The position numbers and the translations under genes were made by a program. A stretch of DNA of 64,000 nucleotides, taken from assembly GCA_027485995.1 (NCBI GenBank), contig JAIXPW010000221.1, positions 1-64,000 of the forward strand. Reading direction: 5' to 3'. The notes below the pieces were generated by a model. That model was not told the DNA's origin and ran no database searches. It saw nothing but the letters and a program-made list of their open reading frames with translations. This DNA comes from Verrucomicrobiaceae bacterium. GTDB lineage: Bacteria > Verrucomicrobiota > Verrucomicrobiia > Verrucomicrobiales > Akkermansiaceae. Shown in pieces: positions 16,670 through 34,807 of this stretch (position 1 is its first letter; each line of letters starts with the position of its first letter).

Positions 16670-16783
16670 GATCGTGATCGGTGAGGGTGTGGGGTTTTCT
16701 CCGCGCTGAGGGGATGAGTAGCGCTGTCTGACCGGATCCGGCAAAGGCTTTGAGGTAACGGCTTGGTTGGAATTCGTCCGCGT

Positions 16784-19486
16784 TCAGTGGACCACGCGGA
16801 GCCTCAGGAATCGGCGTGGAGCGGAAAGGGTGGTGGCAGTGTCGCGGATGAGGATGGATTTCGGGGTGCTGCCCGCAGTTTCTCCGGAGACGTAGCCGAT
16901 CCCGGTGAACGCTCCGCCGTTGACGCTGGTGGCCAGCGGGGTCCATGGGGGAGCGAGGGTGGAAGAGGCCTCGACGATGAGCGTGATGTCCGTCCGGGCA
17001 GGGTCGCGTGGGATCTGGAGGGAGAGGCTTTTCCCGTTGGCAAAGGTGGCAAGATTGGCCTGGGGCGATGGATTTGAGAGATTGGGATCGGTCCCGAGGG
17101 CGTATTCGACGAGGTTGGTCAGGCCATCGAGGTCGGGGTCCGCTTGATCGGGTGCGTTTGGTGCGCCGAGATTGGCGGTTTTCCAAAGGGCCAGCGGCGA
17201 GTCATCGACGATCCGGAAAAGCACCCCGCCGCCGAAAACGCCTCCGCCGGCAGCAGTGCCGAAGATGGTTCCGCTGGAGTCGGTAGCCAAGCCGCCGGTG
17301 AACACCAGGCCTGCGCCGTCATCTGCCGTCGCTGCACCCGGCATGCTCCCCACCATGCCCGTGAAGCCGGCCAGGATCCGCAGGCCGCTGCCGGAGTATC
17401 GGTAAACAGCCCCCACGCTGGCCGGTCCACCTGTCGCGGCCAACCCGAGGATGGCTCCGTCGGCGGTGGAATGCAGGTCACCGACTGGCGTCCCGGCGTT
17501 GGTGCCGTCGAACTCCGCGACCACCGACCAGGAATTGTTGACGGGATTGATCCGGAAGAGGGTCCCAGCATCGGCGGCACCTCCGAGCCCGGTGGTTCCA
17601 TACAGATAGCCATCGGAGCCAAGAACCAGCCCTCCCCGTGGGCTGCGCGGACCCGTGGTGCCGAACTGGGCCACCAGCGAATAGACCCCGAGGGCGGAAA
17701 TCCGATAGATGACTCCGGTGTTCGAAGCCCCCCCGGTTTCCGTGACCCCGTAGAAGGCGAGGTTCGGTGCGAACACCAACGGCCCGCGCGGGCTGGCTCC
17801 CGGGGCCACTCCAGCGGTGCCGGTGAACGAGACAAGTCGCGTCCGAACGCCGGAGGTGGTGACCTTGTAAACCGCCCCCTTGGCACTGGCTCCCCCTTCC
17901 CGTCCGACTCCGTAAAGGGCTCCGTCCGAGCCAATCACCAGGCCTCCTTCTGCAAGCGAGCCGTTGGCAGTGGTGAAGGTGTTGAGTAGGCTGGTTCCAA
18001 TGCCCGGCGTGTAGCGGAACGCCGTCCCCCGCCCCGATCCTCCCCCACTGGTGGAAACGCCGTAGTAGCTCCCGCTTTTCTCCACCAAGGCCCCGTCCGG
18101 CGCATCGCCCAAAGAGCCTCCGATCGGCGCGACCACCGACAAGTCCCCGGCTGCGCTGCGCGACACCAGCGCGCCGCCTCCGACCGAGCCACCCGCCGCC
18201 ATCGGAACCAGCCAGCCGCTTGCCCCATCCGACACCGGGGCTCCGGAAGGCCGCCAGCCGAGTTCGGGAGAAAGGTTTGCCACCGTTGTGAAGACCCCGG
18301 TGGTTGAGAGTTTGAAGACCGTTCCGAGATTCGCCGGGCCACCTGAGGAGGTACAGCCTTGAAGGAAGCCGGCCCCAGCGGAAACCAATCCTGCGCGCGG
18401 CACGGCCCCCAGAGCGGCTCCGGACTCCCCGGTGAAACTCTTCAGAAGGCTGTAAGCCCCAGCCGTCGAACACTGGAAAAGCCCGCCGAGCCCGGAGCTG
18501 CCACCCGCCGCGCAGCAACCGAAAAGCGTGTTTCCAGAAGCCACCAGCTCGCCCACCGGCTGCGAGGCCGAGGCATCGGCAAAGTTCCACAGGTCCGTGA
18601 ACCCATTCAAGGTCGTCAGGCTGAACAAGGTCCCGAATCCATTCGCGCCGCCAAACTCCGTCGTGCCGTAGTATTTCCCGTCGGAATGAAGATAGAGCCC
18701 GCCGGCGGGATTCGCGCCGGGCCTCAGACCGGAGGTGCCGGTGAAGTCGATCACATCAGTGAACACCCCGGCCGTGGTGATCTTGTAGATCGTCCCGAGT
18801 CCGCTGGCCCCGCCGGATCTCGTCACGCCGTAGAGCGTGGTTCCCAGGCTTGGCAAGGTCAGGGCCCCGACCGGCTCCGCGCCGCGCTTCGCTCCCGTCG
18901 TGAGCCCCGTGAACTCCGCCAGGGTGGTCAAGGTGCCGGAAATGCTGATCTTGAAGACGGTTCCGCGCCCGTTGACGCCTCCGGCCTCGGTCGTGCCGTA
19001 GAGAAAGCCGTCGGTGAAAGCCACCAGCGGACCGGGCACCGAGCCCTTCGCCGCCCCTGTGGTGCCCGTGAACTCGACCAGCTTGGTGTAAACTCCCGTC
19101 CCGGAAATCTTGAATGCCACGCCGAATCCGTTCGCCCCGCCTGCAGAGGTGGTGCCGTAAAGCTGGCCGTCCGATCCCTGGACGAGGCCGGCCGTGGGGC
19201 CATCGCCCGGAGCTGCCCCAGCATTGCCGGTGAAGGAAACCACCGTCTCGACCACCCCTGCCGCCGTGACCCGGAACACCGCGCCGTAACCATGGGCCCC
19301 GCCGCTGGTGGCCGTGCCATACGACTCACCGCTCGCGAGCCTGAGCAGCCGTCCTGTCGGCTGGGACCCAGGCTGGGTAAAGGATTTCAGGACCTCATAC
19401 CCTCCCAACGCGGGCATGGCGAAGCAGGCCATGGCTGTCAGGAAAACAGAGGCCAGTCGGATCCGCGGGGTTGACCGGGGGGTCAT
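16784..19486 (-). CDS. large exported TIGR03803 (Gloeo_Verruco) tandem-repeat protein
   Basis: A 900-residue secreted protein with a signal peptide (residues 1-28) and about fourteen repeats of 45-60 residues built on YGTTxxGGxxGxGTxFKI, each usually followed by a VxFTG strand (for example GQLYGTTSAGGANGFGVAF and GYLYGTTGLGGAADAGTLF). This is the TIGR03803 pattern, found mainly in Verrucomicrobiota, Gloeobacter and relatives, and probably forms a beta-propeller-like fold. After the repeats, DPDLDGLTNLVEYALGTDP and a C-terminal beta domain form a common verrucomicrobial secretion-type tail. Two units (near NTLFGCCAAGG and WLVPMAAGG) are degenerate. Confidence 0.88.
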   Translation of the reverse strand: MTPRSTPRIRLASVFLTAMACFAMPALGGYEVLKSFTQPGSQPTGRLLRLASGESYGTATSGGAHGYGAVFRVTAAGVVETVVSFTGNAGAAPGDGPTAGLVQGSDGQLYGTTSAGGANGFGVAFKISGTGVYTKLVEFTGTTGAAKGSVPGPLVAFTDGFLYGTTEAGGVNGRGTVFKISISGTLTTLAEFTGLTTGAKRGAEPVGALTLPSLGTTLYGVTRSGGASGLGTIYKITTAGVFTDVIDFTGTSGLRPGANPAGGLYLHSDGKYYGTTEFGGANGFGTLFSLTTLNGFTDLWNFADASASQPVGELVASGNTLFGCCAAGGSSGLGGLFQCSTAGAYSLLKSFTGESGAALGAVPRAGLVSAGAGFLQGCTSSGGPANLGTVFKLSTTGVFTTVANLSPELGWRPSGAPVSDGASGWLVPMAAGGSVGGGALVSRSAAGDLSVVAPIGGSLGDAPDGALVEKSGSYYGVSTSGGGSGRGTAFRYTPGIGTSLLNTFTTANGSLAEGGLVIGSDGALYGVGREGGASAKGAVYKVTTSGVRTRLVSFTGTAGVAPGASPRGPLVFAPNLAFYGVTETGGASNTGVIYRISALGVYSLVAQFGTTGPRSPRGGLVLGSDGYLYGTTGLGGAADAGTLFRINPVNNSWSVVAEFDGTNAGTPVGDLHSTADGAILGLAATGGPASVGAVYRYSGSGLRILAGFTGMVGSMPGAATADDGAGLVFTGGLATDSSGTIFGTAAGGGVFGGGVLFRIVDDSPLALWKTANLGAPNAPDQADPDLDGLTNLVEYALGTDPNLSNPSPQANLATFANGKSLSLQIPRDPARTDITLIVEASSTLAPPWTPLATSVNGGAFTGIGYVSGETAGSTPKSILIRDTATTLSAPRRFLRLRVVH

Positions 19487-21848: not shown

Positions 21849-23213
21849 TTAGGTCGATTTCTCACTCCCCGCCGGGACACGGAATTCAAACTCGATCCAC
21901 CCCGGTTCGCTCGGATTCAGCACGAGGTCGCCACCATGGGCGCGGATCAACTCGCGGGCGATGTTAAGGCCCAGTCCATGGCCACGGACGTTCTCGCCGA
22001 CCTTGCTGCCGCGATGGAAGCGATCGAACAAGTGCGCCTGATCCTCCTCGGAAATCGCCTCGCCGGTGTTGCGGATGCGGACGATCGCCCACTCGCCGTC
22101 GGTGTTTCCAATGACCTCGATCGCCCCGCCCTCGGAGGCGTACTTCGCGGCGTTCTCGACCAGGTTCTGAAGCACCATCGCCACTCGACGCCGATCGGCC
22201 CGCGCGGTCAGGCTTTCCGGAAGTTCCATCTCGACGCTGAGATTGCGGTCGGCCACGAGCACCACGAGGTCGTCCGCCGCCGCTTCGATCATCGCCTTGA
22301 GATCGATTTCCTCGGACTCGATGACCAGCCTTCCGGCGTCCGCCTGGGCCAGCAGCAGCAGGTCCTCGATCAGGGTTGTAAGACGCCGCGTCTGCTGTCT
22401 GAGCAATGAAACCTCGGCGGCCTGGGCGTCTGTTAGACCGGTTTCATGGGAAAGATGGTCCAGCCCCGCGCGGAGAATGGTGACGGGAGTCTTGAGCTGA
22501 TGCGAGGCATCCGCCGAAAAGCGCGCGGCGGCGGCGTAGGAGGATTGGAGGCGGTCGAAGCTGCGATTCAGAACTTCTGTTAGACGAGCGATCTCATCCT
22601 TCGCCCCTGGCATCGGCAGTCGCTCGTGAGGATTCGCCGTGCTGATGCGTTCCGCCGCTGCGGAAAGCCCGGCCACCGGAGCCACCGCCCGCCGGCCCAG
22701 CCACAGGCCACCGATGAAGACCACGAGTCCCACGACCGGCAGCGAGACCAGCAGCGCCAGTCTCAGATCTTCCTGGAAGCGCTCGATCGTCCCGAGCCGC
22801 GAGCCGATGCGGATCAGATACGGGCCCTCCTGCCAGATGCCGACGCGGCAGTTGCGCTCGAACATCACCACGGTCTTCGTATCGCCGGTTTTTCCCTCGA
22901 TCGTCGTGTCGTGGAGGTTCGGGGAGCGATAGAGAACCTGGCCTTCCGGGCCCTCGATGATCAGGTAGTGGCGCTGAAGCGCCAACGGAATGAACTTCGC
23001 AGCAAGTGGTCGGCGGGGATCGACCGGCGCGCCACGGAAATTCTGCAGGTCCCGGAACAACTCATCCGCATCCGTCTTCAGAAGCTCGTCCAGTTGCTGG
23101 ATCTGATGAAAATACAGCACCGGCATCAGCACCAACGCCCCCGATCCGACAGCCACCATGGTGAGCAGCGCCGCATAGACGCCTACTTTCACCTTGAGGG
23201 ACCAGCGTTTCAT
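21849..23213 (-). CDS. sensor histidine kinase
   Basis: A 454-residue membrane histidine kinase. TM1 is about residues 10-35, the periplasmic sensor about 36-150, TM2 about 152-173, then HAMP (about 174-228) and the HisKA box SADASHQLKTPVTILRAGL with phospho-acceptor His238. The ATPase domain shows the N box NLVENAAKYA and the G box GHGLGLNIA. It phosphorylates the regulator encoded immediately upstream, which it overlaps by four bases (ATGA). The periplasmic domain gives no hint of the signal. Confidence 0.95.
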   Translation of the reverse strand: MKRWSLKVKVGVYAALLTMVAVGSGALVLMPVLYFHQIQQLDELLKTDADELFRDLQNFRGAPVDPRRPLAAKFIPLALQRHYLIIEGPEGQVLYRSPNLHDTTIEGKTGDTKTVVMFERNCRVGIWQEGPYLIRIGSRLGTIERFQEDLRLALLVSLPVVGLVVFIGGLWLGRRAVAPVAGLSAAAERISTANPHERLPMPGAKDEIARLTEVLNRSFDRLQSSYAAAARFSADASHQLKTPVTILRAGLDHLSHETGLTDAQAAEVSLLRQQTRRLTTLIEDLLLLAQADAGRLVIESEEIDLKAMIEAAADDLVVLVADRNLSVEMELPESLTARADRRRVAMVLQNLVENAAKYASEGGAIEVIGNTDGEWAIVRIRNTGEAISEEDQAHLFDRFHRGSKVGENVRGHGLGLNIARELIRAHGGDLVLNPSEPGWIEFEFRVPAGSEKST

Positions 23214-23887
23214 TTCGAGGTCTGCATGACATAGCCCACGCCACGGACCGTGCCAATCACCGACTCCGTTCCGGGGCGATCGAGCTTCTTTCTCAGCCGC
23301 ATCACGAAGATCTCCACCGTCCGAGTGTCATACTCATGCTCCCTCTCCCAGATCCGCTCGCAGATCTCATCCCGGGAAAACGTGCGGCCCGGTTCGCGCA
23401 TGAACACGCTCAGGACATCGAACTCACGGGGCGAAAGCTCGATGCGCTCCTCACCGCGCATCACCCGGCGCTTTTCCAGATCCATGCAGAGATCCCCCAC
23501 GCGGCAGGCCTGCTGGACCTCCGCCGTGCCGTTGCGGCGGCCCAGAACGTCCACCCGGGCCAGCAGTTCCTCAATGGCGAAGGGCTTGGTCAAATAGTCA
23601 TCCGCCCCGGACTTCAGTCCATTGACGCGGTCTCCGACCTCCGAGCGCGCGGTCAGCATCATCACCCGCAGCGGCAGCTTCGCCGCACGGATCCGCCCGA
23701 GGAGTTCGAAGCCATCAAAGCCCGGCAGGTTCACGTCCAGCAGCACGAGATCGAAGCGCGAGCCGGTCACCGCTTTCAGACCCGCAGGGCCATCGGCGGC
23801 GTGCGTGACGGAGTGGCCCGCACGGGTCAATGATCGGCTGACCTGACCCGCAAGCTGCGGCTCGTCTTCGACTAAAAGAATGTCCAT
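23210..23887 (-). CDS. OmpR/PhoB-family response regulator
   Basis: About 225 residues. The receiver domain starts MDILLVEDEP, has phospho-acceptor Asp51 in LVLLDVNLPG, and the conserved Lys in YLTKPFA. The C-terminal winged helix carries LSPREFDVLSVFMREPGR and IWEREHEYDTRTVEIFVMRL. First gene of the two-component operon. The ATG at 23887 is chosen because receiver domains begin there. A palindrome at 23979-23994, about 90 bp upstream, is a candidate autoregulatory site. Confidence 0.95.
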   Translation of the reverse strand: MDILLVEDEPQLAGQVSRSLTRAGHSVTHAADGPAGLKAVTGSRFDLVLLDVNLPGFDGFELLGRIRAAKLPLRVMMLTARSEVGDRVNGLKSGADDYLTKPFAIEELLARVDVLGRRNGTAEVQQACRVGDLCMDLEKRRVMRGEERIELSPREFDVLSVFMREPGRTFSRDEICERIWEREHEYDTRTVEIFVMRLRKKLDRPGTESVIGTVRGVGYVMQTSK

Positions 23888-23978
23888 GGGTTTTGGAGAG
23901 AAATGACTCTCCACTGAAGCAGCAAGGAGTCAATACCCCACCAGAAACGCGTCCCGTCCATGCCCCCTCAAGGCGGCT

Positions 23979-24063: not shown

Positions 24064-24552
24064 TCAATCAAACCAACCTGTGGACGGCTTCTTCTTCGAA
24101 ACAGTCGGCCAATTCGCATCGGCAATCTTCAGGTTGCCATTGGTATCCTTGTTGAACTTGTCACGGATGCTCTTGTCATACTGCAAAAGCAGACGGCCAT
24201 CGACGATCTGGAAGGCATCGACCTCGATCTTCACCAAATCACCCTTGGAGACCCCATAGGCGCAGAAGCCACCGAATTGTGGCTCATACTTGGCGGGCTC
24301 CTTGTCGAAGGCGGCCTTGTTGGCGGCGTTGGCGAAGAAGTAGTTTGCTCCGTTGACCGTGCTGTAAATCTCGGCCTGCCCCTTCACTGGTTTGCCCTCG
24401 GTAAAGAAGGCAACGGGATCGTAGCCCTGAAGGGCGCGCCCGGTCTTGTCCAGGTTCTTCGCCTGTGCGTGGAGATGGCCGGAAAACCCGAGGCCGAGAA
24501 CCAGGAGAAGTGCGAACTGAACGATGCGTCGAATAGTGGATTGTGTTTTCAT
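24064..24552 (-). CDS. exported YHS-domain protein
   Basis: A 162-residue protein with a signal peptide (about residues 1-29, ending HLHA-QA) and a YHS-type region containing ALQGYDPVAFFTEGKPVKG, YFFANAANKAAFDKEPAKY and FGGFCAYGVSKG. YHS proteins of this class are often linked to metal or redox stress. The ATG at 24552 is chosen over 24570 because the candidate ECF promoter at 24564-24589 ends just upstream, giving a very short leader. Downstream of the Rieske gene on the same strand, with its own promoter. Confidence 0.88.
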   Translation of the reverse strand: MKTQSTIRRIVQFALLLVLGLGFSGHLHAQAKNLDKTGRALQGYDPVAFFTEGKPVKGQAEIYSTVNGANYFFANAANKAAFDKEPAKYEPQFGGFCAYGVSKGDLVKIEVDAFQIVDGRLLLQYDKSIRDKFNKDTNGNLKIADANWPTVSKKKPSTGWFD

Positions 24553-24563
24553 ACGTGAGATGA

Positions 24564-24589
24564 GTCGCACCCGATCCGGATTCCTTACA
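24564..24589 (-). promoter_or_regulatory. candidate ECF-sigma promoter of the YHS gene
   Basis: Minus strand TGTAAGGAA (24581-24589), an 11-bp spacer, then TGCGAC (24564-24569). The spacing is identical to the two sites at 27134-27159 and 27853-27878. It ends 11 bp before the YHS start. Confidence 0.7.
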
Positions 24590-24602
24590 CCCGATCCACG
24601 AT

Positions 24603-26414
24603 TCAGCGAACCGATTGAATCGAATCCACCCGCAGCACCGGCGTGACTCCGTGAAGTTCAAGCATTCCGGACACCTCGATGAATGTGCCTGCGAGTTGGA
24701 TGTCATAGTTCAGAGCCTCTCCCTCCGGCCCGGCCAGCATGAACACGACACCGTCGCCAGAACCGTCACGAACCAGCAGTCCCGGCGGCACACCGCCGCT
24801 GAGGCAGCGAATGGCGCAGGCGCGATGGACCTTGCCGGTGGCCGGCCGCATCACGCCGGACCAGCATTTGGTATCGACGAGTTCGCCGGTGAATTTCCCC
24901 TTGCCCAGTGACGACACATCCTCGTCGGGTGAGGGTGCCGCGCCTTGATCGACGATGGTGAAGGTTTCCGGGCGGTTCATCTCGATCATTCGGAACGGCT
25001 CTCGAACGATCAAACTGCCATCGAACTTCACACGATGACCATGTGCACCAGCGATCAAGGTCTTCACTCCGAATTTCCCTGCCCCCACGAGAATATGGTC
25101 CACCGTCGTGCCATCAGCAGCCTCGAGGCGGAGTCTTGGGATAGGAGTTTCATAAATCACCCCTTCAAAGGATTTCACCACTCCAAACTCGTAGCGTCCG
25201 CGATCTACCGGATTCTGAAACCACACGATCATGGCAATGATCATCGGAATCGAGACGGCGGCAGGAATCACTGCAGCACGAAGCCGACGCGCGAGGGCCG
25301 GAGCCATCCGCGCCTGCCAGCCGATGTAGAATTCCATCTTCTCCACAGGCCGGGATTCCGGCACAGGAACACCCTCGGATTTCGTGCCCGGCGGCAGAGC
25401 CTGGGTTGATAGAAAGACGGCGGTGCCAACCATCCGCAGCGGATAGGTTTCAAGAACCTCGTCGAAGGGCGGCGGGCTGCAGCCGTCCTCCGCCTTGTAT
25501 TGGAATCCGTGCCATGGGCAGGTGATGCAGCCGTTGACGATGCGGCCTTCGCCGATCGGTCCGCCCTGGTGGCGACAGACGTTTGAGAGCGCGAAGAGTC
25601 GGCCATCGCGAACGAACAACGCGAAGCGCTTGCCGCCTGCGACGACGACCCTGCCTTCGTTCTCCGAAAGGTCGCGGACATAGGCCACCTTCTCGAAGCC
25701 CTCTCCCGCGAGTTCGCTGGCCCGGCGATCCAGCGCCCGCTCTTTTGCAGCGGCAGCCAGATGGAGGGCCATCAGCGCGACAAACCCGGTGCCTAACAGG
25801 ATCGGGAACACCGGACTCCGCTCCGCCTGCAGCACGCCCAGAAGCACGTGCGCGACGATCAGTCCGTAGGCGGCATACACGAGTTGGTGGAGTCGCTTCC
25901 AAGTGCGAGGTCCCAGATGGCGCAGCCAGAAATCGTGGCTGGTGGCAGCCATCAGGAAGAGAACCAGCAGCGCGAGGAATCCGAGGATTTCAAACGGAAA
26001 GCGCGAGATCGAGCGGAGGTCGGAAAGCGGTGAGAGATAGTCGTTTCCGTAGGCGGTGAAAACGCTCACCAGCGGGTTCCTGTCGCCCAGTGCGTGATAC
26101 TGGAAAATCGTGAGCACGCCATGAATCAGCGCCATGACGGCCAGTGTCACACCGAGATGGCGGCGGTTGTAGAGCAGAGGCAGGAAGCGGGGCACCAACC
26201 TCGAAAGTGGTCCAATGGCGAGAGTGACATGCAGCAACAGGAACGCGGTGACCGAGGTGAAACGGATGAGAAACATCTCCGCGGTGGTGCCCGGATGGCG
26301 CAGGGCGGTGATCGCACCGAATACGCTGACCGCCAACAGGACGACTCCCAGCAGGGTGAAATCATAGATCCGCTTCTGCCGATTCCAGCCGACCGCTTGA
26401 TAGAGATGCGACAT
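24603..26414 (-). CDS. ferric-reductase-like membrane domain fused to a Rieske domain
   Basis: A 603-residue membrane redox protein. The first 220 residues have about six TM helices with His pairs (near 62, 98, 107, 176 and 189) typical of heme-binding ferric-reductase/MsrQ-like domains. A complete Rieske [2Fe-2S] domain follows (Cys280/His282 in CRHQGG, Cys299/His302 in CPWH). Then come one TM (about 383-402) and a C-terminal beta region with CWSGVMRPATGKVHRACAI, a cysteine/histidine segment. Probably passes electrons across the inner membrane. It lies in the ECF-sigma gene group. Confidence 0.88.
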   Translation of the reverse strand: MSHLYQAVGWNRQKRIYDFTLLGVVLLAVSVFGAITALRHPGTTAEMFLIRFTSVTAFLLLHVTLAIGPLSRLVPRFLPLLYNRRHLGVTLAVMALIHGVLTIFQYHALGDRNPLVSVFTAYGNDYLSPLSDLRSISRFPFEILGFLALLVLFLMAATSHDFWLRHLGPRTWKRLHQLVYAAYGLIVAHVLLGVLQAERSPVFPILLGTGFVALMALHLAAAAKERALDRRASELAGEGFEKVAYVRDLSENEGRVVVAGGKRFALFVRDGRLFALSNVCRHQGGPIGEGRIVNGCITCPWHGFQYKAEDGCSPPPFDEVLETYPLRMVGTAVFLSTQALPPGTKSEGVPVPESRPVEKMEFYIGWQARMAPALARRLRAAVIPAAVSIPMIIAMIVWFQNPVDRGRYEFGVVKSFEGVIYETPIPRLRLEAADGTTVDHILVGAGKFGVKTLIAGAHGHRVKFDGSLIVREPFRMIEMNRPETFTIVDQGAAPSPDEDVSSLGKGKFTGELVDTKCWSGVMRPATGKVHRACAIRCLSGGVPPGLLVRDGSGDGVVFMLAGPEGEALNYDIQLAGTFIEVSGMLELHGVTPVLRVDSIQSVR

Positions 26415-26417
26415 GGC

Positions 26418-26783
26418 TCAGGGGCGTGTGGTCTCGGTTTCGGGCAGGGACTTGAAAGCTGGTGCCCGCCAGGTCAACGCGGCGGCGAAGGCCATAATCC
26501 CGACGACTGTTAGAATCAGGATCGCCCGGCGGTGGCTTCGGCGTAGTTCCTCCGCGCGGTCGGGTCCGCCACCAATCCCTGGCCGGACTGCTTTCATCAC
26601 AATCAACGGCCACAGCGCGATGATGCCTGGAGCAACCAGCACCCGGAAGCCGAGGCTGCCACCGGCCGTGGCGGGATCCAGTCGCTTGATGTGCCTTGCG
26701 AAAAACCAAATCGCGATGGCGATTCCAGCCACCCCATAGGCTGCGGCGATTTTCAGCAGAAGGCTGATTGCGGTCTCAATCAT
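26418..26783 (-). CDS. small membrane protein, unknown
   Basis: A 121-residue protein with three hydrophobic segments (about residues 5-28, 46-64 and 86-104) separated by basic loops. It starts inside the end of the upstream zinc-finger gene (8-bp overlap) and ends three bases before the ferric-reductase/Rieske gene, so it is part of that operon. It may be an accessory subunit of the redox protein, judging only from position. Confidence 0.7.
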   Translation of the reverse strand: MIETAISLLLKIAAAYGVAGIAIAIWFFARHIKRLDPATAGGSLGFRVLVAPGIIALWPLIVMKAVRPGIGGGPDRAEELRRSHRRAILILTVVGIMAFAAALTWRAPAFKSLPETETTRP

Positions 26784-27078
26784 GGTGATGACGCGAGAGG
26801 GTTTCCTTCAGCCTGGACTTCGATTCCTCGGAAAGCCGGGGATCACACGGACTGGAGGTTTCCTCCGCGAGTCGTCTGCTCAGACCGCCAAGCAGGCCGA
26901 GCTGATCGCGATATCTCAAGCACCACACGCAAATGCCATAGTGCCAGCGCATCCTCAGCTGGGTGACCTTGGACAACGGCTGCTCTCGTTCGACTGAAAT
27001 CAATCGCGTCATTTCGCGACAGCGGGGGGTGATCGCGCAAATCAGGGCGACAAACACATGGCCTAGCCAAATTTTCAC
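26776..27078 (-). CDS. zf-HC2-like anti-sigma factor candidate
   Basis: About 100 residues. CREMTRLISVEREQPLS followed by HYGICVWCLRYRDQL gives the Cys, then His-x3-Cys-x2-Cys pattern of zf-HC2 anti-sigma zinc fingers. A hydrophobic stretch precedes it (HVFVALICAI). GTG at 27078 is preferred because the longer frame opens with a weak TTG at 27126. It lies downstream of the ECF sigma gene with its own candidate ECF promoter, consistent with feedback control. Confidence 0.72.
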   Translation of the reverse strand: MKIWLGHVFVALICAITPRCREMTRLISVEREQPLSKVTQLRMRWHYGICVWCLRYRDQLGLLGGLSRRLAEETSSPCDPRLSEESKSRLKETLSRHHHD

Positions 27079-27133
27079 ACGGGCGATCAAAGCGGGAATA
27101 AAGTGAGGAATGATTGCTCTTAGCAAAGGGTAA

Positions 27134-27159
27134 GTCGGATCTCGCCGGACTTCCTTACA
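27134..27159 (-). promoter_or_regulatory. candidate ECF-sigma promoter of the anti-sigma/redox operon
   Basis: Minus strand TGTAAGGAA (27151-27159), 11 bp, TCCGAC (27134-27139). It lies between the sigma gene stop and the anti-sigma start. Same motif and spacing as at 24564-24589 and 27853-27878. Confidence 0.75.
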
Positions 27160-27201
27160 GAGTCATTGAAGATTTTTTCCCGAGCTCCCCCCACAAGGCG
27201 C

Positions 27202-27786
27202 TCACGCCCTTCCGAACCAATTCATCTCCAAACATTCGCGCAGGGCCATCCGGGCGCGGTGCAGCATGACCCAGAGATTGCTTTGGGAAATGCCGAGAGT
27301 TTCGCAGATCTCCGGCGTCCCGGCATCATCCATTTCCCGCATCATGAAGGCGTTGGCCACGCGTGGAGGCAGCTTCTTCATGCAATCACGCATGGTCTGC
27401 CAGAATTCCCCGCTGAATGTCACCGCCTCGTCCTCCTGCCAATCCTTCGGACCGATGTCGTGGTTCCAGAAGCCGTCCTCGAATTTATGGGACATTTCAT
27501 CGCCCAGGAACTCCATGTCGGTGAAGGGGGTTTCCCGCCCGTGCTTGCGGAAATGGTCGGCGATCTTGTGCTTCAAAATACCCACCAGCCAGCTCCGTTC
27601 GGACGAGCGGCCTGTGAAGTTATCCACCGCCTTCACTGCAGCGAGCAAGGTGTCCTGAACCAGATCCTCCGCGGTTTCCGGTTTCCGGACACGCAGCAAT
27701 GCAAAGCGGTAAAGGCAATCGCCATGCTCATCGACCCAGCACTTCGGGTCAACCTGCGGGGCCTCATTGCTGGAGGGTTTCTGCAC
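27202..27786 (-). CDS. ECF-type RNA polymerase sigma factor
   Basis: A 194-residue sigma-70-family protein. Region 2 shows LYRFALLRVRKPETAEDLVQ and DTLLAAVKAVDNFTGRSSER with SWLVGILKHKIADHFRK; region 4 shows LPPRVANAFMMREMDDAG and ICETLGISQSNLWVMLHRAR (helix-turn-helix). It begins with GTG at 27786. An acidic linker of about 40 residues separates the two regions. It is divergent from the DoxX operon and upstream of the zinc-finger anti-sigma candidate; the three TGTAAGGAA-N11-TSCGAC sites nearby are its likely targets. No site was seen before its own start. Confidence 0.92.
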   Translation of the reverse strand: MQKPSSNEAPQVDPKCWVDEHGDCLYRFALLRVRKPETAEDLVQDTLLAAVKAVDNFTGRSSERSWLVGILKHKIADHFRKHGRETPFTDMEFLGDEMSHKFEDGFWNHDIGPKDWQEDEAVTFSGEFWQTMRDCMKKLPPRVANAFMMREMDDAGTPEICETLGISQSNLWVMLHRARMALRECLEMNWFGRA

Positions 27787-27852
27787 TTAACCGTTTGCTA
27801 GTTGGGCGTCAGAGGGACCGCAACGCCAAAAGTCCCACTTCAAAGAATTCCG

Positions 27853-27878
27853 TGTAAGGAAACATCGCCCCATCCGAC
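27853..27878 (+). promoter_or_regulatory. candidate ECF-sigma promoter of the DoxX operon
   Basis: TGTAAGGAA (27853-27861), 11 bp, TCCGAC (27873-27878), about 48 bp upstream of the DoxX ATG at 27927. Matches the two minus-strand sites in both sequence and spacing. Confidence 0.75.
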
Positions 27879-27926
27879 CAATCCCACGCATGCCGGAACG
27901 CCATGCACAAGACCAAGGAAACCTCC

Positions 27927-28322
27927 ATGAAAGCCATCTATCAAATCTGTCGGGCTCTGGCAGCGATCATCCTGCTCCAGACACTTTACTTCAAATTCAG
28001 TGGGGCTCCCGAGTCCGTTTACATTTTCACCAAGGTCGGCGCAGAGCCGGTCGGCAGGATCGGCAGCGGGATCGTCGAACTGATTGCAGCCGTTCTGCTG
28101 TTCGTGCCTCGATTCAATTGGCTGGGCGCTGGCTTGGCCGCAGGCGTCATGCTGGGGGCGATCGGCAGCCACCTCACGGTGCTCGGCATCGAAGTGATGG
28201 GCGACGGTGGCCTGCTGTTCTCGCTGGCCTGTGTCGTGTTCGTCTGTGCGATGTTCATCCTCTGGGTGCGGAAATCCGAGTTGCCGGTGATCGGCCGCAT
28301 GTTTGAACCCCGCCGCGCATGA
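27927..28322 (+). CDS. DoxX-like membrane protein
   Basis: A 131-residue four-TM protein of the DoxX-like superfamily: YQICRALAAIILLQTLYFKF, then GIVELIAAVLLFVPR, and two further TMs, ending in a basic tail. Family members are inner-membrane proteins tied to redox or thiol stress. The ATG at 27927 is chosen because AGGAAAC precedes it by a suitable distance; an ATG at 27903 is also in frame. First gene of an operon with a candidate ECF promoter; it overlaps the next gene by four bases. Confidence 0.85.
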   Translation: MKAIYQICRALAAIILLQTLYFKFSGAPESVYIFTKVGAEPVGRIGSGIVELIAAVLLFVPRFNWLGAGLAAGVMLGAIGSHLTVLGIEVMGDGGLLFSLACVVFVCAMFILWVRKSELPVIGRMFEPRRA

Positions 28323-28810
28323 AGAACTTGCTTGCGATGAACATGGAGCTTCTCGATCAAGCGATCCAGATGATCCGGAATCAGCCGGACGGACACTACA
28401 GCCAGACCTGCAGGGAGGTATTCTCGAGCACCATCGGCCAGCATGTCCGTCACTGCGTGGAGCACTATGAGGAGTTCCTGACGGCCATATCAGAGGGGAG
28501 GATCCTGGATTACGAAAAGCGTCCGCGTGACCTGCGCTTGGAAACCGACACCGGAGAGGCCTTGCGGCGGCTGACTGCGGTCCGCAACTCACTTGGTGAA
28601 CTGAGTGATCCCGGACACGGACTGGAAGTGATGGACAATGGCGCGTCAACCCCTGCCCTATCCTCGACCGCCCGCGAGGTGCAGTATCTGCTTTCTCACA
28701 CCGTCCACCATTTCGCCCTGATCGCTGTGATCGCCGGTCTCGGCGGCACGAGTGTTCCTGACGACTTCGGGATCGCGCCATCGACACTCAAACACCGCAA
28801 CCGCGCCTGA
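28319..28810 (+). CDS. DinB-family four-helix protein
   Basis: A 163-residue protein of the DinB/YfiT superfamily of metal-binding four-helix bundles. Candidate metal ligands are in TIGQHVRHCVEHYEEFL and the C-terminal box YLLSHTVHHFALIA. Members act as thiol-dependent S-transferases or remain uncharacterised. It starts at the ATGA shared with DoxX and its stop shares one base with the next ATG, so all three are translationally coupled. Confidence 0.82.
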   Translation: MKNLLAMNMELLDQAIQMIRNQPDGHYSQTCREVFSSTIGQHVRHCVEHYEEFLTAISEGRILDYEKRPRDLRLETDTGEALRRLTAVRNSLGELSDPGHGLEVMDNGASTPALSSTAREVQYLLSHTVHHFALIAVIAGLGGTSVPDDFGIAPSTLKHRNRA

Positions 28811-29478
28811 TGTGCTCCGCTGCCTGGAAATTCACTGACGGTGGCTATGAACTCGGGTTCAACCGCGATGAAAAGTGGAACCGTCCCCCCTCGCTTGATC
28901 CACAGTGGGAAAGGGAGCATCCGGTGCCGGGGGCCTGTGCGCGCGACGGAGCCGCTGGAGGCACCTGGTTGTTCACCAACTCCTTCGGCATCACCCTCGC
29001 GGTGATGAACGCTTATCCAGATGGCCGTATCCCGGAGGCTGGAGAAATTTCCCGTGGGTTCATCCCTTTCCTCGCTGCCGCCAACGAGTCACCCGAGCAG
29101 ATCGAAGTGGCCTTGATGCAAACCTCCTGGCAGAAGTTTGCTCCGTGTCGCGTGCTGATGATCGCCGCTTCTGGAGCTCGGCATTATGGATGGGATGGGA
29201 TCAGCTTCTCCAGCCTCCAGTCCCCGGAAGAAAATTTCCTCACGACCTCTTCATTCAAGTGTGAGGAGGTCTGCGCGACTCGCAGAGCGAGATTCAAGGA
29301 GATCTCGGATTGGCCGATCGCCGGGATTCTCGATGACGAGTTGGCCGCTGATCCCGCTGCAGCGATCCATGCCTCACGGAGTGATGGCGGCACGGTGAGC
29401 CGAACCTCGGTGATCGCGGATGGCCGTGGCATCCGCTTTGCCGTGAGGCGCAGGGGGGAGTTGTTCCAGCAGTTATGA
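28810..29478 (+). CDS. NRDE/TANGO2-family protein
   Basis: A 222-residue NRDE-domain protein: MCSAAWKFTDGGYELGFNRDE contains the N-terminal Cys2 and the NRDE motif that names the family, followed by GGTWLFTNSFGITLAVMN. Family roles are debated (heme or lipid handling; TANGO2 in eukaryotes). The N-terminal Cys after Met recalls Ntn-hydrolases. Its stop overlaps the start of the triple-fusion gene (ATGA). Confidence 0.82.
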   Translation: MCSAAWKFTDGGYELGFNRDEKWNRPPSLDPQWEREHPVPGACARDGAAGGTWLFTNSFGITLAVMNAYPDGRIPEAGEISRGFIPFLAAANESPEQIEVALMQTSWQKFAPCRVLMIAASGARHYGWDGISFSSLQSPEENFLTTSSFKCEEVCATRRARFKEISDWPIAGILDDELAADPAAAIHASRSDGGTVSRTSVIADGRGIRFAVRRRGELFQQL

Positions 29479-32036
29479 GAAACCCGCAGGTCATGATTAC
29501 CAAGAAACGCCTGCTGCTTTTCCTCTATCTGATCGCCCTCCTGGCTTCCTGGGTGGTCATGTCGAATCGCCGGGTTCCTCTCCCCCAGCGCGCTGGCTGG
29601 CAAGAGATCTCCATTCCGACGGATGACGGCAGCTCGGCCATGCTGCGCTACCGACGCTTCGCCGGAACCAATCCCGGACTCGCCCCTCTGGTGCTGGTGC
29701 ATGGCAGCCCGATGGCATCCTCGTGCTTTGATCCGCTGCTGGCTGCGTTGCCGCGCGACCGCACGATTCTTGTGCCGGACCTGCCAGGCTTCGGTGCCTC
29801 ATCGTCGGGCTTTTCGGACTTTTCATTTCCGGCTCACGCCGAGGCCCTCGCACATTTGGTGGAGGCGGAGAACCACAAGTCGGCGCACTGGATCGCCTAC
29901 AGCCAGGGCGGCGGTCCGGTGCTGGATCTTTCGGCACGAATGCCGTCGATGTGCGAGTCGGTCGTGCTGCTTTCGAGCATTGGCGTGCAGGAGCATGAGC
30001 TGACCGGGGACTATTTCCTCAACCACATCCTCCACGGCACCCAGTGGATCGCCCTCGAAGGCCTGCGCTGGGGGCTGCCGCATTTCGGAGTCCTGGATGA
30101 CGTCCTGCTGAACGTCCGTTACGCCCGGAATTTCTACAACGGCGACATGCGACCGCTGCGAGGCCACCTGAACGCGCTCGCCTCCCCGGTGCTGATCATT
30201 CATGGAGAATCGGACCGCTTGGTGCCGCCCTCGGCCGCGCGAGAGCATTTCCGCATCGTGCCTCAGAGCCGGGCCGAATGGCTTTCGGGCGGGCACATGG
30301 TGCTCATGTCGGAATGGAAAATCGTGGCGGGAATGATCGAGGGTTTTCTCAAGGACGTGGAATCGGGTGCCGCGCCAGACCGAAGTCGGGCCGATCCCGT
30401 GAGGGTCGAAAGCGCGGCGAAGCCTTTCGACAAAAAGGCGATGGAGCTCTCCGGGATGTCCTACCACCTGACCTTGGCGGGAATCGCACTCGCCACGCTC
30501 GTCAGCGAGGATCTCGCCTGTCTCGCAGCCGGGCTCCTGGTCGCCCGTGGCCTGATTCCGCTTGGTGGGGGAATCGGTGCGGCGTTTTCCGGAATCTTCC
30601 TCGGTGACATGTTGCTCTATCTTGCGGGCAAATTTGGAGGTCGATGGTGCGTCGAACGTGTGCCGCTTCGCTGGATCATCAGCGAACGAAATCTCGATGC
30701 CGGGCGTGATTTTCTTCAGAAGAAAGGAGCCATGGCGGTGTTCATCAGCCGCTTCACCCCGGGCATGCGGCTGCCGCTTTATGTTGCTTCGGGCATCGTA
30801 AAAGTCCCGACGTCGAAGATGGCGCTTTGGTTCATGCTCGCCGGCCTGGCGTGGTCGATTCCGGTGGTGAGCCTCACCGCATTTTTCGGTGATCGCGCTG
30901 TCCAGTGGCTTCCAACAAACGGCACGGCGGTGTTCCCGGCGGCGTTGGCGCTTATCGTCCTGATGTGGGCGCTGCTGAGGCTTCTCACCCAACTCGCGAC
31001 GCACAGGGGGCGACGCATTCTCTGGGCGAAATGGCAGCGCTTGACCCGCTGGGAGTTCTGGCCGCCATGGGTGTTCTATCCGCCGGTCGTGATCATGGTG
31101 TTTCTCCTGGGCCTGCGACGTCGCAATCTGCTCGCCTTCACCGCAGCGAATCCGTCCATGCCCCACAGCGGCATCGCCGGCGAATCCAAGTCGGACATCC
31201 TCGGGCATCTGCTGCCATCAGGAGCCGTGGCTCCATTTCTCAGCCTGCCTGCGAGCACACCCGACCGACTGGAAGCTGTTAGAAAATGGAATCCCGGCTT
31301 CCCTCTCGTCGTGAAGCCGGATGTCGGCGAGCGCGGCAGGGACGTGGTGATCGTCCACGACGAGTTCTCGCTGGCGCATGAGATCGAAAAGCGGACCTGC
31401 GACACAATCATCCAGAAATACGTGGAAGGCGCGGAATTTGGCGTGTTCTACCTCCGCCACCCCGATGAAAAGACCGGGCGGATCTTCTCAATCACCACCA
31501 AGATCATGACCTCCGTCATCGGAGACGATGTGCAGACTCTTGAGGAACTGATTCTGAACGATGACCGCGCCGTCCTCTCGCATCGGCATTTCAGACGCCT
31601 CCATCAGCAACGACTCGGCGAAATCCCAGCCATGGGTCAACGCGTGCGACTCGCCAGCCTCGGATCACACTGTCGGGGAGCACTATTTCTCAATGGCAAC
31701 CATTTGATCACGCCCTCTCTCGAGGCCGAAATGGATCGCATTGCCCGCACCTTCGATGGCTTCCACTTCGGTCGATTCGACCTTCGCTGTCCGGACGAAG
31801 AAGCCCTGAAGCGCGGCGAGGGCATCCGTCTGATCGAACTCAACGGCGTCACTTCGGAGGCGACCCATATCTACCATCCCCACACGCCGCTCCTCAGCGG
31901 CTATCGCGCGCTCATCCGTCAGTGGCGGCACTCTTACGACATCGGCATGGCGAACGCCGCAGCCGGTGCGCGGGTTTCCACCTGGCGGGAACTGGCCATT
32001 CTCGTGAGAGAGCACTTCAATCCCGACAAACACTGA
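29475..32036 (+). CDS. triple fusion: alpha/beta hydrolase, VTT (DedA-like) membrane domain, ATP-grasp ligase
   Basis: An 853-residue membrane protein with three modules. After an N-terminal TM (13-29), residues about 50-297 form an alpha/beta hydrolase: oxyanion loop HGSPM, nucleophile Ser143 in AYSQGG, Asp247 in HGESD and His274 in GGHMVL. Residues about 335-505 form a VTT/DedA-type domain with FSGIFLGDMLLYLAGKFGG and FISRFTPGMRLPLYVASG. Residues about 560-830 form an ATP-grasp domain with Lys614 in LVVKPDVGERG and the metal ligands Asp769, Glu788 and Asn790. All catalytic residues appear intact. It precedes an OlsB-like acyltransferase, suggesting lipid synthesis, transport or modification (inference). 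Confidence 0.86.
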   Translation: MRNPQVMITKKRLLLFLYLIALLASWVVMSNRRVPLPQRAGWQEISIPTDDGSSAMLRYRRFAGTNPGLAPLVLVHGSPMASSCFDPLLAALPRDRTILVPDLPGFGASSSGFSDFSFPAHAEALAHLVEAENHKSAHWIAYSQGGGPVLDLSARMPSMCESVVLLSSIGVQEHELTGDYFLNHILHGTQWIALEGLRWGLPHFGVLDDVLLNVRYARNFYNGDMRPLRGHLNALASPVLIIHGESDRLVPPSAAREHFRIVPQSRAEWLSGGHMVLMSEWKIVAGMIEGFLKDVESGAAPDRSRADPVRVESAAKPFDKKAMELSGMSYHLTLAGIALATLVSEDLACLAAGLLVARGLIPLGGGIGAAFSGIFLGDMLLYLAGKFGGRWCVERVPLRWIISERNLDAGRDFLQKKGAMAVFISRFTPGMRLPLYVASGIVKVPTSKMALWFMLAGLAWSIPVVSLTAFFGDRAVQWLPTNGTAVFPAALALIVLMWALLRLLTQLATHRGRRILWAKWQRLTRWEFWPPWVFYPPVVIMVFLLGLRRRNLLAFTAANPSMPHSGIAGESKSDILGHLLPSGAVAPFLSLPASTPDRLEAVRKWNPGFPLVVKPDVGERGRDVVIVHDEFSLAHEIEKRTCDTIIQKYVEGAEFGVFYLRHPDEKTGRIFSITTKIMTSVIGDDVQTLEELILNDDRAVLSHRHFRRLHQQRLGEIPAMGQRVRLASLGSHCRGALFLNGNHLITPSLEAEMDRIARTFDGFHFGRFDLRCPDEEALKRGEGIRLIELNGVTSEATHIYHPHTPLLSGYRALIRQWRHSYDIGMANAAAGARVSTWRELAILVREHFNPDKH

Positions 32037-32037
32037 G

Positions 32038-32790
32038 ATGCTTTCCCTCATCTTTTCCAACAGCTATCAGGTGTGCGTGACACGTGAGCCTGAAGACATC
32101 CGGGCGGCACAGCAGCTCCGCTACGAGGTCTTCAACGTCGAGTTGGGCGAAGGCCTGGCCACCTCGCGCGAAGAGAAATTGGACGCGGATCCTTTCGATG
32201 CCCAGTGCGACCATCTTGTCATCAAGGAGAAGGCTAGCAGCCGGGTGGTGGGAACCTACCGCCTGCAAACCGGGGCCATGGCCGAGGCGGGTCTGGGCTA
32301 CTACAGCGCGCAGGAGTTCGATTTCCAACCCTATGAGATCTTGAGAAACGAGGTGTTGGAGCTCGGTCGCGCTTGCATCCATGTGGACCACCGAAGGGGG
32401 GCCGTGCTGGACCTTTTGTGGCGCGGCATCGCCCGTTACGCATCGCTTCATGGATCCCGATACCTTCTAGGATGCAGCTCGCTCACTTCGCAAGACCCAA
32501 CGGAAGGCTGGGGCCTCTATCAGTCTTTGAAAGACCGCCATCTGGCCCCTCCTGAATTGCGAACAGCGCCGATCGGTGAGTATCAGATGCCTGATCCGGG
32601 ACAGGCCATGCCGCCCGTGAAAATCCCAAAACTTTTCGCCGCCTACCTGAATATCGGCGCGGTCATCGCCGGGCCGCCGGCACTGGATCGCGACTTTCAA
32701 ACCATCGACTTCCTGACGATCCTCGACGTCACGGCAGTATCGGGAGTGGGCCTCAAACACTTTTTCGGTGGATGGGATAGCGAGCATTGA
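32038..32790 (+). CDS. OlsB-like N-acyltransferase (GNAT fold)
   Basis: A 250-residue protein of the ornithine-acyl-ACP N-acyltransferase/hemolysin-like family, which makes lyso-aminolipids. Typical features: [40 protein letters not shown] and the core [20 protein letters not shown] with LLGCSSL. It starts one base after the stop of the triple-fusion gene, so the two are coupled. The acceptor amine (ornithine, another amino acid or another amine) cannot be told from sequence. No OlsA-type second acyltransferase is visible nearby. Confidence 0.85.
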
Positions 32791-32893
32791 AGGGATGCTC
32801 AAGCTCGTGGCCTTGCGACCGTCTTGGCCTGCTGAGGTTCTACCGTGTTTGAGGCCTCGATTTCGTTTCAGCTTCCTGAAAGCATCGCAGACA

Positions 32894-34807
32894 GTGAAAT
32901 TCGCCGCCCTCCTGCTCGCCGCCGTCGCCTGGGTTCTCCCCCTTATCGGAGACGCTGCGGTGAAGCCGAACATCGTCTTCATCCTCGCCGATGACCTCGG
33001 CTGGGCGGACACCGCGCTTTATGGCCAGACGAAACTCTATCGCACGCCGAACCTGGAACGATTGGCGAAGCGCGGCATGACCTTCGATCGCGCCTACGCT
33101 GCCAGCCCGCTGTGCTCCCCCACCCGCTCCAGCATCCTCACCGGCCTGCATCCGGCCCGCACCGGGATCACCACGCCGAACTGCCATGAGCCTCGCGTGG
33201 TCCTTCAAGCCACCACCGGGAAAACCGCGCCGCCTTCGAAAAAATCGATCGCACCCGACCCACCGACCCGCCTCAACACCACCTGGCCGACGCTTTCCAA
33301 GGCCCTGAAGTCCGCCGGTTACGCGACCGGGCATTTCGGAAAATGGCATCTCGGCGCCGAGCCCTACTCGCCGCTCCAGCAGGGCTTCGATGTCGATGTC
33401 CCCCACTATCCAGGCCCCGGACCGGCGGGCAGTTTCGTGGCTCCGTGGAAATTTCCCGACTTCGATCCGCAGACGCCGAACGAGCACCTCGAAGACCGCA
33501 TGGCCAAGGAGGCCGTGGCCTTTCTGGAAAAGCACAAGGACGAGCCCTTCTTTCTCAACTACTGGATGTTCAGTGTCCACGCGCCCTTCGATGCCAAGAA
33601 GGCGCTGATCGAAGAGTATCGCAGCAAGATCGATCCCACCAATCCGCAGCGCAGTCCAACCTATGCCGCGATGGTCGAGAGCATGGACGACGCCGTCGGC
33701 ACGCTGCTCGACACGCTCGACCGCCTCGGCATCGCCGATCGCACGATCATCGTCTTTTTCTCCGACAACGGTGGCAACATGTATGACGAGGTCGATGGCA
33801 TCACGCCGACCAGCAATGCCCCATTGCGCGGAGGAAAGGCCACCGTCTTCGAGGGCGGCATCCGCGTGCCCTGCGTGGTCAGTTGGCCGGGCTTGATCAA
33901 GGCGGACACACGCAACGAAACCGTGATCCAGAGCTGCGATTTCTATCCGACCCTGCTGGAGGCCACGGGTCTAACAGCCCTGCCCGGCCAAGCCTTCGAT
34001 GGCGTGAACCTGATGCCGGTCCTGCAAGGCGGCACGCTGGAGCGCGACGCGATCTTCACCTACTTCCCGCACGATCCGGGCGTGCCCGACTGGCTGCCGC
34101 CCTCCGTCGTGATGCATCAGGGCGACTGGAAACTGATCCGCATCTTCTTCGGCGGAGAAAACGGAAAGCATCGCTGGAAACTCTTCAATCTTCGCACGGA
34201 TCCAGGCGAGAAGAACGACCTATCAGCCACCGAAACAGAGCGCGTCAAGACGATGGACGCGCGCATCGAGGCCTTTCTAACAGACACCAAGGCCGTCCAG
34301 CCGATCGCCAATCCCGCATTCGATCCCGCCAAGTATCAGCCCAAGGAGGAAGGCGTTCAGAACAATCGCGCCAAGGACAAGTCCAAGCCGAAGGCCACAC
34401 CGACACCCAAGGACGATGCCGCTGATCCGAAGCTCCAGGGCTGGAGGGCACGCCAATGCACGGCGACCGTCAATGCGGGCATCGTCACTCTAACAGCCCA
34501 GGGCGTGTCTCCCTTTCTCGGCGTCGGCGCGGCGGCCGATGGCCCGGCCACGCTCAAGTTCCGGACCCGCAGCGCGACGGGCGGCGAGGGCAGGGTCGAG
34601 TGGCTGACTCCCGGGAAGGCTCCACTTCCCGGGAACTCGGTCCCATTCATCGTGAAGCCCGGCGATTGGCAGGAAATCTCCGTGAAGATCCCCGCCGAAG
34701 GGCCGATCGGCATCCTCCGCCTCTACCTCCCCGCACAGCCGCAAGCCCTGGAACTCGACTGGGTCGAGCTCTCCGGCAAGGCGAAGCCGAAGCGCTGGGA
34801 GTTTTAA
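32894..34807 (+). CDS. exported arylsulfatase-family hydrolase
   Basis: About 637 residues from a GTG start. The frame stays open to an ATG at 32768, but GTG 32894 directly begins a signal peptide ([20 protein letters not shown]). Sulfatase hallmarks: [11 protein letters not shown] (metal Asp pair), [12 protein letters not shown], whose Cys becomes formylglycine, [14 protein letters not shown] and [16 protein letters not shown]. After the catalytic domain, a Lys/Pro-rich linker leads to a C-terminal beta domain of about 120 residues (from [14 protein letters not shown]). Likely desulfates glycans outside the cytoplasm. No anaerobic sulfatase-maturase is seen. Confidence 0.9.

Follow-up and report, generated by a model that had tools for sequence, protein, structure and literature searches.

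A probable local regulon of an extracytoplasmic function sigma factor, with three promoters of one motif, in a Verrucomicrobiaceae bacterium

Do three identically spaced sequence motifs around one sigma factor gene mark a local regulon, and which genes would it govern? The question is raised by a 64,000 nt stretch of a Verrucomicrobiaceae bacterium (GCA_027485995.1, contig JAIXPW010000221.1, positions 1 to 64,000; hereafter the window), where an initial annotation reported three copies of TGTAAGGAA-N11-TSCGAC about a gene for an extracytoplasmic function (ECF) sigma factor and proposed a sigma regulon that links redox stress with lipid modification. The sigma protein scores 176.4 bits against the TIGR02943 family model (cut-off 162.2). 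It is accompanied by a putative zf-HC2 anti-sigma factor with an N-terminal extension, whose zinc motif, C36-x25-H62-x3-C66-x2-C69, is invariant in 8 aligned sequences and agrees with the ZAS rule, C/H-x23-26-H-x3-C-x2-C (PMC7907618). The analysis presented here indicates that the locus is very probably a self-contained local regulon of the TIGR02943 sigma factor, with three promoters in the assembled genome. The regulon part of the proposal is thus largely retained: the sites have the form of ECF-type promoters beside their likely sigma factor, the motif is unique to the locus within the assembly, it is clustered in genomes that carry the sigma factor, and it recurs beside the sigma gene in more distant relatives.

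Three promoter sites and a refined motif

All three sites are present where the initial annotation had placed them, on the same strands, with 0 mismatches and with identical spacing, and the sigma gene does lie between two of them, P1 and P3 (Table 1). The sites are found approximately 10-70 nt ahead of genes, in the correct orientation, and their spacers and flanks are unlike one another. The assembly used for scanning comprises 5.7 Mb and is 84% complete. The exact pattern has 3 matches in the whole assembly, all at the window locus; a crowd of random intragenic matches, which the initial annotation had named as the sign of a spurious motif, is not seen. The relaxed pattern TGTAAGGW-N13-SCGAC also gives 3 matches (reversed control, 0), and the looser GTAAGGW-N14-CGAC gives 3, all within 3.3 kb, against 11 matches of the reversed control. 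Under a first-order Markov null, GTAAGG-N15-CGAC is expected 0.087 times per 64 kb, with a maximum of 2 in 300 runs; 3 are observed. By arithmetic from the reversed-control rate (~11 per 5.7 Mb), three sites in 3.3 kb would arise by chance with a probability of the order of 1e-7 to 1e-8. A literature search with the -35 string matched only unrelated primers and RNA papers.

Pairs of GTAAGG and CGAC were counted at spacings 8 to 23 in eight Verrucomicrobial loci, one of which (L056, the same as G011) is a near-duplicate of the window. Eighteen pairs are at spacing 15, two at 16 and two at 19; none occur at the remaining 13 spacings tested, and scrambled pairs display no spacing peak. An alignment of 18 sites was made from the window and seven loci, with L056 left out; it should be noted that the soil sites include orthologous copies, and the 18 sites thus do not represent 18 independent events. 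A T precedes GTAAGG in 16/18 and occupies the ninth base in 15/18. CGAC is followed by an element, NNAYC, which lay outside the search pattern: its A is found in 17/18, its Y in 18/18 and its C in 16/18, and it is present at all three window sites. The motif is better written as TGTAAGGWW-N13-CGAC-NNAYC. The motif first reported was exact as to the sites, but the T preceding SCGAC is not conserved among relatives, and the motif extends 5 nt further downstream.

Conservation and targets in relatives

Relatives were collected by sigma protein similarity. All three sites are retained in G011 (sigma 97% identical), and the core adjoins the sigma/anti-sigma genes in G286 (79%), L057 (71%) and the soil genomes L058-L060 and L076 (65-67%). 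P1 is retained in the window, G011, G286 and L057 despite diverged flanks. The DoxX and YHS promoters also recur in other lineages: P3 is retained in the window, G011 and G043, with AGAC for CGAC in the L057 copy, and P2 in the window, G011 and G043, each time with 11 nt from CGAC to the YHS ATG. This short distance, seen at 24552-24569 in the window and conserved in G011 and G043, suggests a nearly leaderless mRNA. The G043 locus (L051, G043:C14, 5854-7110) is a decayed copy in which only an N-terminal piece of sigma is left, DoxX has merged in frame with parts of the fusion protein and the middle of YHS is gone; both promoters are intact.

Among 260 family genomes, a sigma orthologue at E below 1e-100 is found only in G000, G011 and G286, and the same three are the only ones with at least two clustered, non-repeat copies of the motif. 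The copies in G169 and G029 are repeats of one sequence, and the two in G280 are on separate contigs. Two further matches were taken as chance, one at the start of a panB-like open reading frame (ORF) in G003, a genome without a sigma orthologue, and one in G286 (C47) inside a long ORF on the opposite strand. No motif copy was found at the loci of distant sigma homologues from sister families (L039-L050), which served as negative controls.

Methionine sulfoxide reductases stand behind the motif in several relatives. In L058-L060 the promoter is ahead of MsrP (NF003767, 423-434 bits, cut-off 207); the order in L058 is MsrP, an MsrQ-like gene, sigma and anti-sigma, and since the sigma gene is downstream of the MsrP promoter it may be autoregulated in these soil relatives. 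The promoter precedes MsrA in G286, and an MsrA with a signal peptide (TIGR00401, 180.6 bits) is found behind the promoter in relatives. At L064, promoter 16797-16821 precedes a signal-peptide MsrA (16893-17504), and an adjacent gene (15560-16708, minus strand) encodes an ArsM-like methyltransferase. In plasmid relatives from other Proteobacteria, the sigma-zfHC2 pair is next to MsrPQ or DoxX.

Other genes also follow the motif. At L058 (4158-4182 onward) and L076 (8784-8808 onward) it precedes a conserved, unnamed secreted protein of ~130 aa, followed by HbpS-like/cupin, YHS (L076), SMP-30/gluconolactonase and aquaporin-like (L058) proteins. A radical SAM protein follows the motif at L038:6951-6975 (a CGTC variant) and L078:10787-10811; it belongs to DUF3641 in L078, and the L038 protein is similar by eye. 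This may point to another recurrent target, perhaps tied to arsenic chemistry. A near-match that includes the NNAYC element is found ahead of a TVP38/FAD protein in Sphingopyxis.

The promoter core is also found inside sigma genes. In 10/10 Burkholderiales-type (beta-proteobacterial) genes fetched and in one Rhodothermaceae gene, the recognition-helix codons of region 4.2 spell the core, TGT AAG GAR ... xCG ACN AAY. The Cys-Lys codons of that helix are TGT-AAG in 16/17 genes (Beta, Delta, Gamma, Rhodothermaceae) and TGT-AAA in the other; where the Lys is absent, the codon is TGC in most genes. In the Delta and Gamma genes the match to the -10 half is incomplete. These matches were first dismissed as coding coincidence and then kept as a lead only, as the sequences are related and the codon test ignores phylogeny. 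That a dedicated sigma-to-anti-sigma promoter is a conserved design whose position has moved, from intergenic in Verrucomicrobiaceae to within the sigma gene in Burkholderiales and one Rhodothermaceae, is offered as a speculative and rather improbable idea.

Genes behind the promoters, wiring and alternatives

The coordinates of the sites and genes are in Table 1. The gene list of the initial annotation omits a 121-aa membrane-type protein, and a sulfatase-like gene may also follow the OlsB-like gene. DoxX, DinB, NRDE/TANGO2, the fusion and the OlsB-like gene are arranged head to tail, overlapping or abutting. Residues 600-696 of the fusion protein are a cyanophycin-synthetase-like stretch. 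The 603-aa Rieske protein scores 43.8 bits against MsrQ (NF003831, cut-off 130). A histidine kinase and a response regulator (21849-23914) are directly downstream of YHS, an adjacency kept in G011.

Table 1. Sites and genes of the sigma locus (window positions, unless another locus is named)
Feature	Position	Strand	Remarks
ECF sigma factor, TIGR02943 family	27202..27786	-	194 aa; GTG start as listed; Sigma70_r2 and r4_2
Putative zf-HC2 anti-sigma factor, ZAS motif	26776..27126	-	start uncertain: TTG 27126 as listed or GTG near 27078
Predicted ECF promoter P1	27129..27159	-	between sigma and anti-sigma; TGTAAGGAA-N12-CCGAC-TTACC
Predicted ECF promoter P2	24559..24589	-	upstream of YHS; TGTAAGGAA-N12-GCGAC-TCATC
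Predicted ECF promoter P3	27853..27883	+	upstream of DoxX; TGTAAGGAA-N12-CCGAC-CAATC
Membrane-type protein, no family	26418..26783	-	121 aa; overlaps end of zf-HC2; 96% identical protein in G011
Ferric-reductase-like (MsrQ-like) membrane domain, Rieske domain and C-terminal region	24603..26414	-	603 aa; PF01794, PF00355
Secreted YHS-domain protein	24064..24552	-	ATG 24552; signal-peptide-like N-terminus; NF041384, 136 bits (cut-off 70)
DoxX family membrane protein	27928..28322	+	PF07681; ORF opens 27903; ATG 27928 with Shine-Dalgarno-like AAGGAA
DinB-superfamily protein	28319..28810	+	PF12867; 4-nt overlap with DoxX
NRDE/TANGO2 protein	28810..29478	+	PF05742
Fusion of alpha/beta hydrolase, VTT (DedA-like) membrane domain and ATP-grasp-like C-terminus	29475..32036	+	PF00561, PF09335
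OlsB-like GNAT acyltransferase	32038..32790	+	PF13444
Sulfatase-like protein	32768..34807	+	just downstream of OlsB-like gene; family by eye; operon membership uncertain
Intragenic core, mostly with NNAYC	L067, L069-L075, L077, L078 (~100 nt before sigma gene end); L079:10507-10531		

The sites, their uniqueness, conservation and geometry, and the protein families are read directly from sequence. The wiring that we infer, including recognition of the sites by this sigma factor, an oxidation signal, the operon extents and a role in envelope redox repair, would be as follows. The small zinc-binding ZAS protein of the zf-HC2 type would hold the sigma factor and release it once oxidation, or some related stress on the envelope, is sensed at its zinc-thiol site. 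Free sigma would then bring RNA polymerase to promoters of the refined motif, P1 driving the anti-sigma factor, the small membrane protein and the MsrQ-like/Rieske redox membrane protein, P2 the secreted YHS protein, and the divergent P3 the unit from DoxX through DinB, NRDE and the hydrolase/DedA/ATP-grasp fusion to the OlsB-like gene. No motif copy is found ahead of the sigma gene itself and one is found between sigma and anti-sigma; thus activation would raise the inhibitor and not the activator, a negative feedback. A sigma-70 promoter scan gave fewer matches than shuffled sequence and is therefore uninformative on how the sigma gene itself is expressed.

The redox claim of the initial annotation finds support in the homology to msr-controlling sigma factors and in the MsrP and MsrA targets of relatives. 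A role in envelope oxidation, with the redox membrane protein, YHS and DoxX as the window targets rather than an Msr enzyme, is reasonably likely on this evidence. The proposed lipid-modification link would rest on the OlsB-like acyltransferase, which scores 152 bits against NF052554, far under the cut-off of 350.

Several observations weigh against the regulon reading. The zf-HC2 protein scores 38.8 bits against NF052368 (residues 35-79), below the cut-off of 50, and the -10 core here is CGAC versus CGTC in Neisseria, one base different. No Msr enzyme is behind the three window promoters, MsrP was not found in the window genome and the locus does not qualify as an MsrPQ system, and the one MsrA of the genome carries no motif. 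At 84% completeness of the assembly, further targets could be missing. Sister-family sigma homologues at 35-45% identity are mostly without the motif nearby, and it should thus not be taken to extend to all members of TIGR02943.

A smaller regulon is possible, if somewhat doubtful: the promoters would be real, but only the zf-HC2 and redox membrane proteins, YHS and DoxX would respond, the later genes of the DoxX operon being controlled otherwise and no link of redox to lipid existing. The reach of the operon is read from gene overlap only, the OlsB-like protein is well under its family cut-off, and G286 has sigma, anti-sigma and P1 but no DoxX-operon genes within the fetched 17 kb. However, the five genes from DoxX to OlsB overlap or abut, a consensus scan of this run gave promoters and terminators no more often than in shuffled sequence, and L057 has this run of genes in the same order, at 45-70% identity, following a P3-like site.

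That the sites are instead operators for another DNA-binding regulator is very improbable. Recognition by the sigma factor is read indirectly, but the motif is asymmetric and two-part, with fixed spacing and the right orientation and distance to genes, its -35/-10 geometry agrees with that known for a characterised relative, and it tracks with this sigma factor across genomes. The probability of chance, or of a small dispersed repeat, is close to negligible: short as the motif is, the Markov expectation is far below the count, no further copies occur in 5.7 Mb, the spacers and flanks differ between copies, and the motif is conserved in other lineages.

Comparison with known systems

Judged by sequence, the window sigma factor appears to be distantly related to the switches that respond to oxidative damage in Neisseria and Haemophilus. 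The system is of a familiar kind, but no earlier description of it was found in Verrucomicrobia. For an ECF family that is known chiefly from two pathogens, the locus would supply a promoter code open to testing and a regulon that is compact and seems complete. A probable envelope-oxidation response would also gain several poorly understood proteins, namely the secreted YHS protein, TANGO2/NRDE, the MsrQ-like/Rieske fusion and the hydrolase-DedA-ATP-grasp fusion.

Neisseria sigma-E has the consensus -35 GTMAGBWTT, spacer 12-13 and -10 CGTC(TAAH); it regulates msrA/msrB as well as a DoxX operon, and a ZAS anti-sigma factor keeps it in check (PMC2893595). As with sigma-E (NMB2144) and MseR (NMB2145) of N. 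meningitidis (PMC2893595, PMC3240639), a small ZAS anti-sigma factor adjoins the window sigma; the -35 core GTAAG, the 12-nt spacer, the very few promoters and the presence of one ahead of a DoxX gene are also alike. The GTAAGG core agrees with the Neisseria -35, the form here being GTAAGGWWT; relatives read GTAAGGATT and the window reads GTAAGGAA(T/G/A), with A and not T at the eighth base. The A three positions after the -10 core is common to CGTC(TAAH) and CGAC-NNAYC. However, Neisseria sigma-E is inside the operon that it drives and is autoregulated, whereas none of the sites stands ahead of the window sigma gene. The Neisseria regulon has msrAB, which the window regulon lacks, and the partner genes here are instead Rieske/MsrQ-like, YHS, DinB, NRDE, the fusion and OlsB-like. 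P3 precedes a DoxX-family target as in the sigma-E and RpoE2 regulons, but not one of the DUF692/DUF2063 operon type.

RpoE2 of H. influenzae controls msrAB and a DoxX operon under oxidative stress, that from hypochlorite included, and shows little autoregulation (PMC7907618). The RpoE2-HrsE pair resembles the window system in its ZAS anti-sigma factor, weak sigma autoregulation, DoxX-type target and link to envelope oxidative damage (PMC7907618). It differs in its targets msrAB, dmt and MtsZ, and in that the hypochlorite response is demonstrated there and only presumed for the window system.

With periplasmic methionine sulfoxide repair by MsrP-MsrQ, the window protein shares an MsrQ-like haem membrane domain; it differs in being under the MsrQ cut-off, in its fusion to Rieske and in belonging to a genome without MsrP. 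The soil relatives have a true MsrP and an MsrQ-like gene under the shared promoter. Methionine-sulfoxide repair, by MsrP with the MsrQ-like gene or by MsrA, is a recurring target of the system.

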